From Rhodohalobacter mucosus (GTDB lineage Bacteria > Bacteroidota > Rhodothermia > Balneolales > Balneolaceae): 64,000 nucleotides of DNA. This document shows, piece by piece, positions 47,744 to 64,000 of the stretch. The notes below the pieces were generated by a model. The model saw only the letters and a program-made list of their open reading frames with translations. It did not search any database and was not told the origin of the DNA. The stretch's first letter is position 1. Every line of letters begins with the position of its first letter. Location: positions 62,001-126,000 of the forward strand of contig NZ_QGGB01000009.1 of assembly GCF_003150675.1 (NCBI RefSeq). The letters are read 5' to 3'. A program made the position numbers and the translations under genes.

Positions 47744-48457
47744 TCACGCTGTACCTTTCAGGTATTGTTGCCGCCGGTCTTCAGGGAGATGCTCTATGGC
47801 ATACCGGAGCATGGTTCTGGGCATGTTGCGATAATGTGAACTGAGAAACCGTTCCATCCGCTGCCTGTCGCGACGCCCCGCTTCCCTGATCATCCAGCCG
47901 GCAGCTTTGTGCATGAGATCCTCTTTGTCATCGATCAGAATGAGGGCAATTCGAAAGGTATCTTCAAGGTCGCCCTGACCGATAAAGTAGTGTGTAGCGA
48001 TGATGGATGTTCAGCGTTTCCAGAGATTTTGCGACCTCGCAAGCTCGAATAAAAGGGACCGGTCGCGCCTGAAGAGATGCTTTCCTGCAATTTTATCCGC
48101 AGAGGAATCCACCAGATCCCAATTATTTACTCTGTCAAGATTCCTGATATAAAAACGGAAAATCTCTTCGCGTTCAGGTTCGCCTGCTTTTTTATACTGC
48201 TGAACAAGTACGAACAGCGCTGTTAACCGTACCTCATGCCAGGGCGATTGGAGCAATTCACCAATCTCATCGAGCGACAGATGGCTGTATCTGCCTGCAA
48301 CCTTTCTTTGGGGCGGAACCCGAATGCCGAGAAATTGATCTCCTTCACCATATTCACCCGGACCGGATTTAAAAAATCGCTGTGAGTGTCTGGCGATCTC
48401 AGGGTTGGCCAGCTCTTTAAGCTCGGAGAGCAGACGTTGTACGGATTTACTGCTCAT
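47744..48457 (-). pseudogene. AlkD-like DNA alkylation repair protein interrupted by an in-frame TGA
   Basis: The gene reads from ATG 48457 through 148 codons, ending in LFELARSQNLWKR, then has TGA at 48011-48013. The same frame then continues without a break for 88 codons (TSIIATHYFIGQGDLEDTF... to ...DRRQQYLKGTA) to a TGA at 47744-47746. Together they give a 237-residue HEAT-like repeat protein matching the DNA alkylation repair (AlkD/COG4912) family, including NNWDLVDSSADKIAGKHL (residues 111-128), the region that in AlkD holds the catalytic Trp and Asp. Relatives have Arg at the TGA position (CGA to TGA would do it). It may be a true nonsense mutation, a sequencing error or readthrough. 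Confidence 0.86.
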
Positions 48458-48602: not shown

Positions 48603-51146
48603 CTACTTCTTGCCTTTTTCGTCAATCAGTCTCACGGCATCACCCATTGTAAACTTCTCAGGGTCCGTTCCTTTCGGCAGGGAGATATTTTTTCGCCCGT
48701 ACTTGATGTAAGGGCCATATCGCCCATCCAGAACCTTGATTGGCTGATCCGTTTCAGGGTGTTTGCCCAGGTCGGCAATCGCTGAACTTCCGCGCCCCTT
48801 GCCCTTCTCTTTCAGAAGTTCCACGGCCCGGTTCAGGTCTACAGTGAGCACATTATCGGTTTTCTTAAGCGACTTGAACGATCCGTCATGAAGCACAAAC
48901 GGTCCATACCGGCCGACCCCCGCTTTTACTACTTTACCGGTATCGGGATGTTCTCCCAGCGTACGGGGCAGGCTCAGCAGATCTAATGCGGTTTCCAAAT
49001 CAACATCCGAAGGATTCATCCCCTTTAGCAGCGATACCCTTTTGGGTTTCTTGTTGTCATCCGACACTTCACCCAGCTGTACATAGGGACCGAAACGTCC
49101 GGTTAGCACATAAACATCCTCGCCCGTTTCCGGATGCTTGCCGAGAGATTTGGGTCCGTCTTTTTCGGCGGCAAGAAGCTCTTTGATTTTTTCTGCATTG
49201 AGTTCTCCCGGATCGAGATCAACGGGCAGCGACGTGGTTATCTCTTCACCGTCGCTCTTTGTTTTTACATAGGGACCAAACCTGCCAACATGAACCTGCA
49301 TACCGTTCAGGTCATCGATCGGCAGGTCGAGCAGTTTCGCTTCCTGGGGATCAATCTTGTCCTCCTGCTGGTCTACCTGATTTTTTAGCCCATCATCACC
49401 TTTGTAGTACTCGTCAAGGTACTTAACGGGATCGTATTTGCCCTTTGCAATCTCGTCCAGTTTATCCTCAAGTTTAGAGGTAAATTCACTGTCAACAACG
49501 TGCGGAATGTGTTTTTCCAGAAGTTCGGTTACCGCAAAGGCCGTATAGGATGGGATCAGTGTTTTCCCATCGCTGCGTGCATAACCGCGATCCTGAATTG
49601 TGCTGATAATCGTTGCATAGGTACTCGGTCGCCCTACGCCACGCTTTTCGAGCTCCTTGACCAGTGTGGCCTCTGTAAAGCGGGCAGGTGGTTTGGTCTC
49701 ATGAGAAATGGATTCCAGCTCATGGAGGTCAATACCTTCACCCTCTGACAGTTCGGGAAGAAAAATTTCCTGATTTTCGAGAGCGGCATCAGGGTCATCG
49801 CTTCCTTCTACATATGCCCTGAAGAACCCCGGGAAGAGGATTTTCTTTCCGGTTGTCTTGAACTCCGCACGGGTGCCGTTTTGGTCCGCAGCAATTGTGG
49901 CGTTGGTAAATTCAAGTACGGCCTCTGCCATCTGTGTGGCAATGGTACGTTTCCATATCAGGTCGTACAGTTTGAGTTCACGGCCGCTAAGCCCTGTTTT
50001 TCCAGGCATGGTAAAGCTTGAGCCGGCGGGTCGAATGGCTTCGTGTGCTTCCTGTGCACCTTTTGCCTTGCCGAAATTGCGAACTCTTTCAAAAAGATAT
50101 TCCTCTCCGTACTGCTGCTCTACCGCATTGCGTGCCGCATTGATTGCCTGACCCGATAGCCTCGTGGAATCGGTTCTCATATAGGTGATATGACCGTTCT
50201 CGTAGAGTTTTTGAGCAATACTCATTGTATCACGGGCAGAAAATCCGAATTTACGGTTGGCTTCCTGCTGAAGGGTCGAGGTGATGAAAGGAGCGGAGGG
50301 ATTTCGTTTCTGGGTCTTTACATCTATGGCAGAAACCGACCAGTCAGCTTCCCTGAGCATATCGCGCAGATCATTTGACGCCTTTTCGTCCAGTAAAACG
50401 ACATTATCAGGCTTTTTCAGTTTACCCGTGTTTTCATCAAAATCTTTCCCGCTGGCCAGCCTTTTGCCGTTCAGGTGAGAAAGGTCTGCGGTGAATGTAT
50501 GTTTATCACCCTCTTTTGAAACGGATGCTTTGAGATCAAAATAGGTGCCGCTCTTAAATTTCATCCGCTCGCGTTCCCGCTCTACAAGAAACTCAACGGC
50601 AACCGACTGTACACGTCCGGCAGATAAACCGGGAGAGATCTTTTTCCAGAGAAGCGGGGAGATTGTGTAACCGGCGAGCCGGTCCAGTATACGCCGTGTC
50701 TCCTGTGCATGTACCAGGTTCATATCAATATTCCTGAAATTCTCAAGAGCGTTCTTCACGGCTTCTTCCGTAATCTCCCGGAACACCATCCTCTTCACGG
50801 GCACTTTCGGATTCAACAGTTCGGTAAGGTGCCATGAAATGGCCTCTCCTTCACGATCTTCGTCAGTCGCCAGGATAAGCTCATCTGCGTCCTTCAGCTG
50901 ATCCTTCAGCTTTTTAACAATTTTCTTCTTGCTGGCAGGAACAACGTAAAGGGGATCGTAGCGATCGTCAACATTGATGCCCAGATTAGACCAGGACTCC
51001 TTCTTGTACTTTGCAGGGATTTCTTTGGCAGATGAGGGAAGGTCGCGTATATGCCCCATCGATGAGTCTACTATATACCCCTTGGGAAGATACTTTTTAA
51101 TCGTTTTGGTTTTTGTGGGCGACTCGACAATAACTAATGATTTCAT
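48603..51146 (-). CDS. topA: DNA topoisomerase I
   Basis: An 847-residue type IA topoisomerase. The Toprim domain begins VIVESPTKTKTIKKYLPKGY; the active-site tyrosine lies in ITYMRTDSTRL at about residue 320. The C terminus has four topoisomerase repeat units: HVGRFGPYVKT, LGKHPETGEDVYVLTGRFGPYVQLG, LGEHPDTGKVVKAGVGRYGPFVLH and LGKHPETDQPIKVLDGRYGPYIKYG. There are no four-Cys zinc ribbons, unlike E. coli. It relaxes negative supercoils. Monocistronic or with the downstream AlkD-like gene (145-bp gap). Confidence 0.97.
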   Translation of the reverse strand: MKSLVIVESPTKTKTIKKYLPKGYIVDSSMGHIRDLPSSAKEIPAKYKKESWSNLGINVDDRYDPLYVVPASKKKIVKKLKDQLKDADELILATDEDREGEAISWHLTELLNPKVPVKRMVFREITEEAVKNALENFRNIDMNLVHAQETRRILDRLAGYTISPLLWKKISPGLSAGRVQSVAVEFLVERERERMKFKSGTYFDLKASVSKEGDKHTFTADLSHLNGKRLASGKDFDENTGKLKKPDNVVLLDEKASNDLRDMLREADWSVSAIDVKTQKRNPSAPFITSTLQQEANRKFGFSARDTMSIAQKLYENGHITYMRTDSTRLSGQAINAARNAVEQQYGEEYLFERVRNFGKAKGAQEAHEAIRPAGSSFTMPGKTGLSGRELKLYDLIWKRTIATQMAEAVLEFTNATIAADQNGTRAEFKTTGKKILFPGFFRAYVEGSDDPDAALENQEIFLPELSEGEGIDLHELESISHETKPPARFTEATLVKELEKRGVGRPSTYATIISTIQDRGYARSDGKTLIPSYTAFAVTELLEKHIPHVVDSEFTSKLEDKLDEIAKGKYDPVKYLDEYYKGDDGLKNQVDQQEDKIDPQEAKLLDLPIDDLNGMQVHVGRFGPYVKTKSDGEEITTSLPVDLDPGELNAEKIKELLAAEKDGPKSLGKHPETGEDVYVLTGRFGPYVQLGEVSDDNKKPKRVSLLKGMNPSDVDLETALDLLSLPRTLGEHPDTGKVVKAGVGRYGPFVLHDGSFKSLKKTDNVLTVDLNRAVELLKEKGKGRGSSAIADLGKHPETDQPIKVLDGRYGPYIKYGRKNISLPKGTDPEKFTMGDAVRLIDEKGKK

Positions 51147-61864: not shown

Positions 61865-64000
61865 TTGACTGAAAAATCCTCTGTGTCCAACCCTGAGAAG
61901 GAAACCATTTTTGAAAATGATTTCGCCTATATAACGTCCGGGGGAGACGTACATCTCAAAAAGACCAGCTTCTTTGACGACAGGAAAATTGCCACTATCG
62001 ATCCTGAAAAAGTTGAAGAACAGGTAAGTGAAATGGAAAACGCATTTGAGGATCTGACCGGCAAAGTGGGGTCATTTCTGGATGATGTAGAGGAAGAGCT
62101 GTCAGAACAGCCCGAAAAAGCGAAAGCCTCTTTTGAATCACTTCTCGAAGAGATAAGCAATTCGTCTGCAATTGGCGATTTTGAGAAGCTGCTGTCTGAT
62201 GCCAGGAGCAAATTTGATGAAACGGTAGAGCGTGCGGAAAACGCCGTGTCAGCCGGCCCGGAAAAGGAGGCTGAGGCAGAAAATGAAGAGAGCGATAAGG
62301 AAATGGTACCTGTTGCGGAATCCGAACCTGCTGAGAAGGATTCAGGGAAGAAACCTGAGAATGCGGAATCAGAGGAATCCGCCGGGGAAGTAACGGATGA
62401 AGCCCCGGAAGATTACTACAGAAAGCTGGCGGAGAAAGCGGAGGAGATCTCCCAGGTAGATGATTGGGCGTACGTGTCGATGGAGTTCGATATGATCGAA
62501 AACCAGTGGCAGGAGGGCCCGGATACGGAAGATGCGGATATCAGTAAATTCCGAGCAACGATAGATGAGCTTCGTGAATCGTTTGAAGAGAAAAAAAGAG
62601 CCCACTACGAAGAGCAGAAAAAGCTCAGACTCGCAAATCTTGAGAAGAAAAAGGATCTGCTGCGGCAGCTTTCAGAGATTGTTGACAATAAAGAGTGGAC
62701 CAAGACCCGTGAAGTAGGGAAAATACGCGGACGATGGGAACACCTGAAGCCGCTTCCATCAGGTGAAGCCGAAAAACTTCAGCCACGATTTGATACACTG
62801 CTGGCCACATTTGATGAACACAAGGTGGATCGCCTCGTGAAACAAAAGCAGCAGGAAGAGGATAACCTGACCGGGAAACTGGTTATCCTGGAAAAAATGG
62901 AAGGCTTTGCCGTTGAGCTGGATGAAAAACCGGACTGGAAAGAACTTGATAAAAAATTCAATGATCTGACACGTCAGTTCAGGAAAATTGGCCGTGTTCC
63001 CTCCGATAAGAATCAGGACGTTTGGGACCGTTACCATACGGCACAGGATACCTTTCACTCTCTTCGTTTCAAGCACGATTCAGCGTACAGAAATGAAATA
63101 GAAAAATTTCTTTCCAAGAAGAAAAAACTGATTGACGAGGCCGAAGCCCTGCTCGATTCAGATGACCTTGCTGAAGCAGCACGTAAGGTGAACAAGCTTC
63201 ATCGAAGATGGAAAAAAGTTGGAAACCTTCCGCAGAAAGATGAAAATGAGATGTGGGACCGTTTTAAGGCGGCCACTGATGCATTCAATCAGAAGAAGAC
63301 GGATAATGCAGACCTTCTCAAAGAACAGGAGGAAGAGAATTATCGTGAGAAACTTAAGCTGATTGATGAAGCTGATACGCTGAAAGAGTCGGAAGAGTGG
63401 GATACAGCCCACAAGAAGTTTCAGAAACTGATGGATCGCTGGAAAGAGATTGGTCCGGTACCCAAGCGAAAATCAGGAAAGATCTGGAAGAAGTTCAAGG
63501 GAGCAATGGACTACTTCTATGACCGAAGAAGAGATCATTTTAAAGAGGTTAAGGAAGAGAGAAAAGACAACCTAAAAGAAAAAGAACAAGTTCTCGCCAG
63601 TCTGTCTGAACTTAAGACACATGATGATCCTATTGAAGCTGTTGAACTTGCCAAACCGCTTCAGGAAGAGTTTAAAAAGGCGGGCTATGTACCAATCAAG
63701 CATAAGAACAGATTGTGGAAAGAGTACCGCGAATGCTGCGATGTAATATATGATCGATTCAGGGCTGCAAAAGCAGCTGTGGACGTGGTGGGACGCAAGA
63801 ATCTGGACCAGTTTTCCGCTGATGATATAGCAGGCATTCGGGACAAACAGAATGAAGCGAATAAACTGCGCAAGCAGATCAGCAAGCTGAATGGAGAGCT
63901 CATACAGATGAAGGAATCATTGAGCTACTTCAAGCCTTCCGGAAGCGGCAGCAGTCTGCTTGATGATGTTAAAAAACGAATAGAAAATGCTGAGAAAGAT
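61865..64000 (+). CDS. DUF349 domain protein (partial, runs off the window)
   Basis: The frame is open from the TTG at 61865 to the window end (712 codons) with no stop. TTG is the only usable start: an in-frame TAA lies at 61850-61852 and AAGG at 61851-61854 is the likely ribosome-binding site. The first ~170 residues are acidic, low-complexity and rich in Glu/Ala/Ser. After that come at least five DUF349 repeats, each an amphipathic helical pair with W-K-x-[IV]-G-x-[VL]-P (RQFRKIGRVPSDKNQDVWDRY, RRWKKVGNLPQKDENEMWDRF, DRWKEIGPVPKRKSGKIWKKF). DUF349 proteins are large coiled-coil proteins of the FCB group with unknown role. The end is missing. Confidence 0.84.
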   Translation, partial: MTEKSSVSNPEKETIFENDFAYITSGGDVHLKKTSFFDDRKIATIDPEKVEEQVSEMENAFEDLTGKVGSFLDDVEEELSEQPEKAKASFESLLEEISNSSAIGDFEKLLSDARSKFDETVERAENAVSAGPEKEAEAENEESDKEMVPVAESEPAEKDSGKKPENAESEESAGEVTDEAPEDYYRKLAEKAEEISQVDDWAYVSMEFDMIENQWQEGPDTEDADISKFRATIDELRESFEEKKRAHYEEQKKLRLANLEKKKDLLRQLSEIVDNKEWTKTREVGKIRGRWEHLKPLPSGEAEKLQPRFDTLLATFDEHKVDRLVKQKQQEEDNLTGKLVILEKMEGFAVELDEKPDWKELDKKFNDLTRQFRKIGRVPSDKNQDVWDRYHTAQDTFHSLRFKHDSAYRNEIEKFLSKKKKLIDEAEALLDSDDLAEAARKVNKLHRRWKKVGNLPQKDENEMWDRFKAATDAFNQKKTDNADLLKEQEEENYREKLKLIDEADTLKESEEWDTAHKKFQKLMDRWKEIGPVPKRKSGKIWKKFKGAMDYFYDRRRDHFKEVKEERKDNLKEKEQVLASLSELKTHDDPIEAVELAKPLQEEFKKAGYVPIKHKNRLWKEYRECCDVIYDRFRAAKAAVDVVGRKNLDQFSADDIAGIRDKQNEANKLRKQISKLNGELIQMKESLSYFKPSGSGSSLLDDVKKRIENAEKD

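Follow-up and report, generated by a model that had tools for sequence, protein, structure and literature searches.

A single in-frame TGA at an invariant arginine codon of an alkD-like DNA glycosylase gene in Rhodohalobacter mucosus

AlkD of Bacillus cereus is an alkylpurine DNA glycosylase of solved structure (PDB 3bvs, 3jx7, 5clb), in which Arg148 contacts a phosphate of the DNA backbone. The fold is shared by EF3068 of Enterococcus faecalis (PDB 2b6c), a predicted DNA alkylation repair enzyme. According to PMC7918605, in-frame stops are widespread in bacterial genes and tend to persist for only a short evolutionary time, and in-frame stops common to several bacterial species with dN/dS values below 1 are reported there. 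PMC13092985 describes a tRNA-Trp with an anticodon stem of 4 bp. The gene described here belongs to the AlkD-like family and is interrupted once by an in-frame TGA. It lies in a window of 64,000 nucleotides (the whole stretch of DNA that was analysed; positions 62,001 to 126,000 of contig NZ_QGGB01000009.1, assembly GCF_003150675.1), and coordinates refer to this window unless a contig or locus is named.

Gene structure and predicted fold

47744..48457, minus strand: alkD-like DNA glycosylase gene (PF08713), interrupted once, 237 codons plus the terminal stop, from translation, Pfam and predicted structure
48014..48457, minus strand: open N-terminal part, 148 codons, PF08713 at 1.5e-32, with the counterparts of AlkD Trp109 (W113) and Asp113 (D117)
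48011..48013, minus strand: premature TGA, codon 149, where the homologues have an invariant arginine (AlkD Arg148), from translation and homologue alignments
47744..48010, minus strand: intact C-terminal part, 88 codons plus the terminal TGA, PF08713 at 3.5e-24, with the counterpart of AlkD Trp187 (W188)
48603..51146, minus strand: upstream neighbour, taken from its sequence and without a family search to be topA (DNA topoisomerase I); alkD also adjoins topA in genomes G013 and G014

Translated in a single frame, the gene gives 148 residues, the premature TGA, 88 residues and the terminal TGA. Both parts are members of PF08713 (DNA_alkylation, AlkD-like) far above chance in a Pfam profile search, residues 1-148 alone scoring 113.4 bits and residues 150-237 alone 86.1 bits at a gathering score of 21 bits. 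The read-through frame scores 215 bits (1.3e-63), and its residues 10-224 cover positions 2-213 of the 213 of the profile. NCBIfam returned no family for the protein or for its parts. The initial annotation had assigned the gene to the AlkD-like family, had placed the TGA at 48011-48013 of the minus strand within a 237-codon frame, and had described the 88 codons past it as in frame and family-like; translation and the profile matches agree with it on each of these points. The gene is a member of PF08713 by descent, but probably without an active enzyme as its product.

The read-through sequence was modelled with AlphaFold2 from an alignment of 34 sequences (mean pLDDT 96.3), and the predicted structure is a HEAT-like solenoid of the AlkD type (Foldseek E 8.2e-07 and VIA Z 21.9 to AlkD). 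Residues were mapped by hand counting along a HMMER profile alignment to the AlkD chain 3jxz (residue numbers 1-225), in which W113, D117, codon 149 and W188 align with Trp109, Asp113, Arg148 and Trp187. We take these four residues to be a functional set of AlkD. The counterparts of W113 and D117 are W and D in all 34 aligned rows, and the W188 position is W in 32 of the 34. A continuous frame carrying the whole set is not found in the window, where the frame is ended by the TGA at the Arg148 position. In the predicted structure, codon 149 falls within a helix formed by residues 145-153.

Codon 149 and the gene in related genomes

Codon 149 was compared with 99 other homologous loci; five of the 99 do not cover the codon (L030, L092, L093, L094, L100). 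It specifies arginine in all 94 covering loci (CGC 38, CGT 17, AGA 17, CGG 9, AGG 8, CGA 5), and the pattern L-W-x-x-R is general across the homologues. The window thus carries a stop, in frame, where its relatives have a sense codon, the pattern of a nonsense pseudogene. One-step sources of TGA are CGA, by transition, and AGA, by transversion. The nearest two copies, at 69 and 67% identity, have AGG and CGG, and other members of the genus have CGT, CGA, AGA, AGG or CGG. The comparison with related genomes for which the initial annotation had called supports its view that an arginine codon was lost, but the CGA to TGA history that it proposed is not fixed as to the source codon, since the two nearest copies carry AGG and CGG. 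Relatives sharing the early stop together with a decayed 3' half, which would have spoken against that annotation, were sought among 58 genomes of the genus, family and order (own genome included); 30 of these hold a total of 38 matches, and none of the 37 matches other than the window copy carries an internal stop. A further 64 loci came from a scan of species genomes.

Disrupted homologues were seen among the more distant loci. A PF08713-family gene of a gammaproteobacterial MAG (L053:4001-4684) has a lone in-frame TGA at aligned codon 127 and is open beyond it; the title of the record reads cov_1.235474, and this TGA is possibly a sequencing error. In Porphyromonas gingivicanis JCM 15907 (L089:4001-4701) a PF08713-like homologue is frameshifted near codon 141, which may likewise be a sequencing error. 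Only two short C-terminal pieces, in different frames, were matched in a deltaproteobacterial MAG (L092:4001-4176), probably a decayed copy.

Within the genus the gene is distributed patchily. Matches occur in 16 of 28 genomes, the own genome included, and in 14 of the 18 of good quality. Seven of the 16 (G006, G007, G010, G012, G016, G019, G020) hold a more distant copy of 32-41% identity, which is the sole copy in G010. The nearer copy of G016 (L100:1489-1830) lacks about 120 internal codons, the frame being kept, and approximately its first 91 residues run directly into the last 22; the deletion removes the core and may have arisen in assembly. A search of the own genome with the window gene as query gave no second copy. 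Of 26 topA loci in the genus, three have alkD beside them, namely those of the own genome (G000), G013 and G014, and this shared position supports orthology of the window copy with those of G013 and G014. No credible remnant of alkD was detected at the remaining topA loci (matches at E above 0.5; flanks of up to 1.5 kb were covered, less where a contig ended). G024, the closest genome by topA (87%), gave no alkD match and is only 84% complete. In G013 a pair of small genes (74 and 90 aa; L002:2228-2730) lies between topA and alkD, the second presumably a PIN-domain toxin by its resemblance; neither the window nor G014 has the pair at this position. The own genome also has two other genes for alkyl-base glycosylases, one of PF03352 (Adenine_glyco, 2.0e-83), of the 3-methyladenine glycosylase I type, and one of PF02245 (Pur_DNA_glyco, 1.1e-62), of the AAG type.

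Origin of the stop

Decay is not clearly evident in the sequence past the stop. Where 21 copies are conserved to 90% or more, the window copy departs at 1 of 45 columns before the stop and at 2 of 33 after it, and the 20 other copies depart at 0-8 of the same columns before codon 149 and at 0-4 after it. Across the 93 homologues that align over more than 150 residues, 24 columns are conserved to at least 95%, and at these the sole departure of the window copy is codon 149 itself. Counted as position-wise differences in amino acids, the window copy diverges from either of its two nearest copies by 0.32 before the stop and by 0.35 after it, and those two copies diverge from each other by 0.27 and 0.26, respectively. 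Changes unique to the window copy number two before the stop and three after it (three and one, and four and two, in the neighbours), a slight excess past the stop on counts that are too low to interpret. An old pseudogene appears unlikely in view of the conserved columns and the position-wise differences past the stop. With no copy closer than 67-69% identity, the lack of decay mostly reflects the time that preceded the stop and sets only a loose bound on its age. The stop probably arose long after the lineage had separated from those of G013 and G014.

We consider it quite likely that this AlkD-type repair gene, a dispensable one, acquired a nonsense mutation very recently. A single mutation would have turned an arginine codon of an alkylpurine DNA glycosylase gene into TGA, so recently that the remaining frame shows no visible decay. 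The expected product would be a fragment of 148 residues that ends within the helix just ahead of the Arg148 counterpart and is missing the end of the solenoid, the Trp187 counterpart included; as such, it should not act as a glycosylase. The loss would be tolerable because the gene is dispensable in the genus and other alkyl-base glycosylases are present, which may compensate for it. Of the three causes named in the initial annotation, a recent mutation is favoured, given the lack of clear decay and the arginine found at codon 149 in every covering locus. Ordinary gene loss is most likely, and no new mechanism is called for.

The main rival is an error of base calling or consensus, or the reading of a minority strain from a mixed assembly, with the true gene intact and arginine at codon 149. 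The good conservation of the remainder of the gene and the assembly of the genome in 17 contigs are compatible with it, and the mid-gene TGA of L053, given the coverage in its record title, indicates that such stops occur in thinly covered assemblies. Single substitution errors are, however, rare in modern assemblies, and a search for other interrupted genes on the 332-kb contig argues against an assembly that is generally error-ridden. An earlier scan by codon usage had missed the alkD stop, and a geometric list was used instead, which required at least 45 open codons on each side of the stop and little competing frame and comprised 42 stops, alkD included. Of the 41 others, 30 were scanned, and at none did a Pfam domain run across the stop (six had no Pfam domain whatever), so the alkD stop looks isolated; the scan detects only Pfam-domain genes with one stop and covers one contig (332 kb of 3.9 Mb). 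Error is accordingly judged unlikely, although it deserves consideration, and the base call is taken to be real. Beyond the window, at 2103-18998 of contig C9 of the own genome (L149), four scanned stretches carry PF19578 (DUF6090) on the minus strand, some of the genes lying head to tail.

Read-through of the TGA by a near-cognate tRNA-Trp or a suppressor, which would yield some full-length enzyme and keep the gene under selection, could also leave the sequence past the stop without clear decay, and the dN/dS values below 1 in PMC7918605 would be in line with it. The stop is, however, confined to one species and is not kept in the related species compared, and the short persistence of such stops in the same source also speaks against read-through. 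Release factor 2 was found (475.5 bits, cut-off 370), and on the 332-kb contig long frames end in TGA more often than in any other stop (181 of the 375 stop-to-stop frames with 150 codons or more). None of the 40 listed tRNA sites, all typed by ARAGORN, has a UCA anticodon (150 of 190 candidates scored), and no tRNA was found by ARAGORN in the window. The tRNA-Trp has a CCA anticodon and an anticodon stem of 5 bp, unlike the 4-bp form in PMC13092985, and insertion of tryptophan would replace a residue that is arginine in all relatives compared. A suppressor tRNA among the 40 typed sites and a tRNA-Trp with a 4-bp stem were rejected on these grounds, and suppression, initially listed as a possible cause, is disfavoured and very improbable. 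A regulated or phase-variable switch, in which TGA and arginine alleles would alternate or low-level read-through would be selected so as to turn alkylation repair down, is rated slightly lower still.

A deliberate split, with two halves made separately by re-initiation and then assembling, is scarcely credible: both halves are conserved, but no ATG, GTG or TTG follows the stop until the ATG at codon 182 (ahead of it there are just ATC, ATT and a single CTG, at codon 174), a product starting there would lack 33 residues of the fold, the break falls inside the predicted helix, and no split relative occurs among the 58 genomes. Selenocysteine or a general reassignment of TGA may be practically dismissed, as the initial annotation had done for selenocysteine: TGA is indeed the codon for selenocysteine and for most bacterial reassignments, but SelB (TIGR00475) reached at best 106 bits against a cut-off of 242 and tRNA-Sec (RF01852) 44.9 against 47 (150 of 388 candidates scored), at a site that ARAGORN typed as tRNA-Ser, relatives have arginine and not cysteine at codon 149, and reassignment conflicts with the presence of release factor 2 and with the frequent ending of long frames in TGA; as the genome is 97.18% complete, selenocysteine machinery could conceivably be encoded in the part that is absent.

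Comparison with known systems

With a very recent nonsense mutation as the preferred reading, the gene is best annotated as a probable recent pseudogene (or as carrying an unverified base), and not as a recoded or split gene. The in-frame-stop genes and nonsense alleles in PMC7918605 are similar in that a single stop interrupts a frame that is otherwise conserved, as expected for a young nonsense allele; the focus of that paper is on stops common to at least two species, whereas the stop in the window is known from one genome. Among solved structures, EF3068 aligns with the read-through model over 202 residues (Z 20.1, rmsd 2.3, 18% identity) and has no stop. The best solved match is B. cereus AlkD, which aligns over 215 residues, nearly the whole length, with a VIA Z of 21.9, an rmsd of 2.4 A and 25% identity. 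The counterparts of its Trp109, Asp113 and Trp187 are retained in the window gene, and the codon for the counterpart of Arg148 is the TGA. The gene would add one clean case of a lost alkyl-base glycosylase gene, its stop lying at the arginine with which AlkD contacts the DNA backbone.
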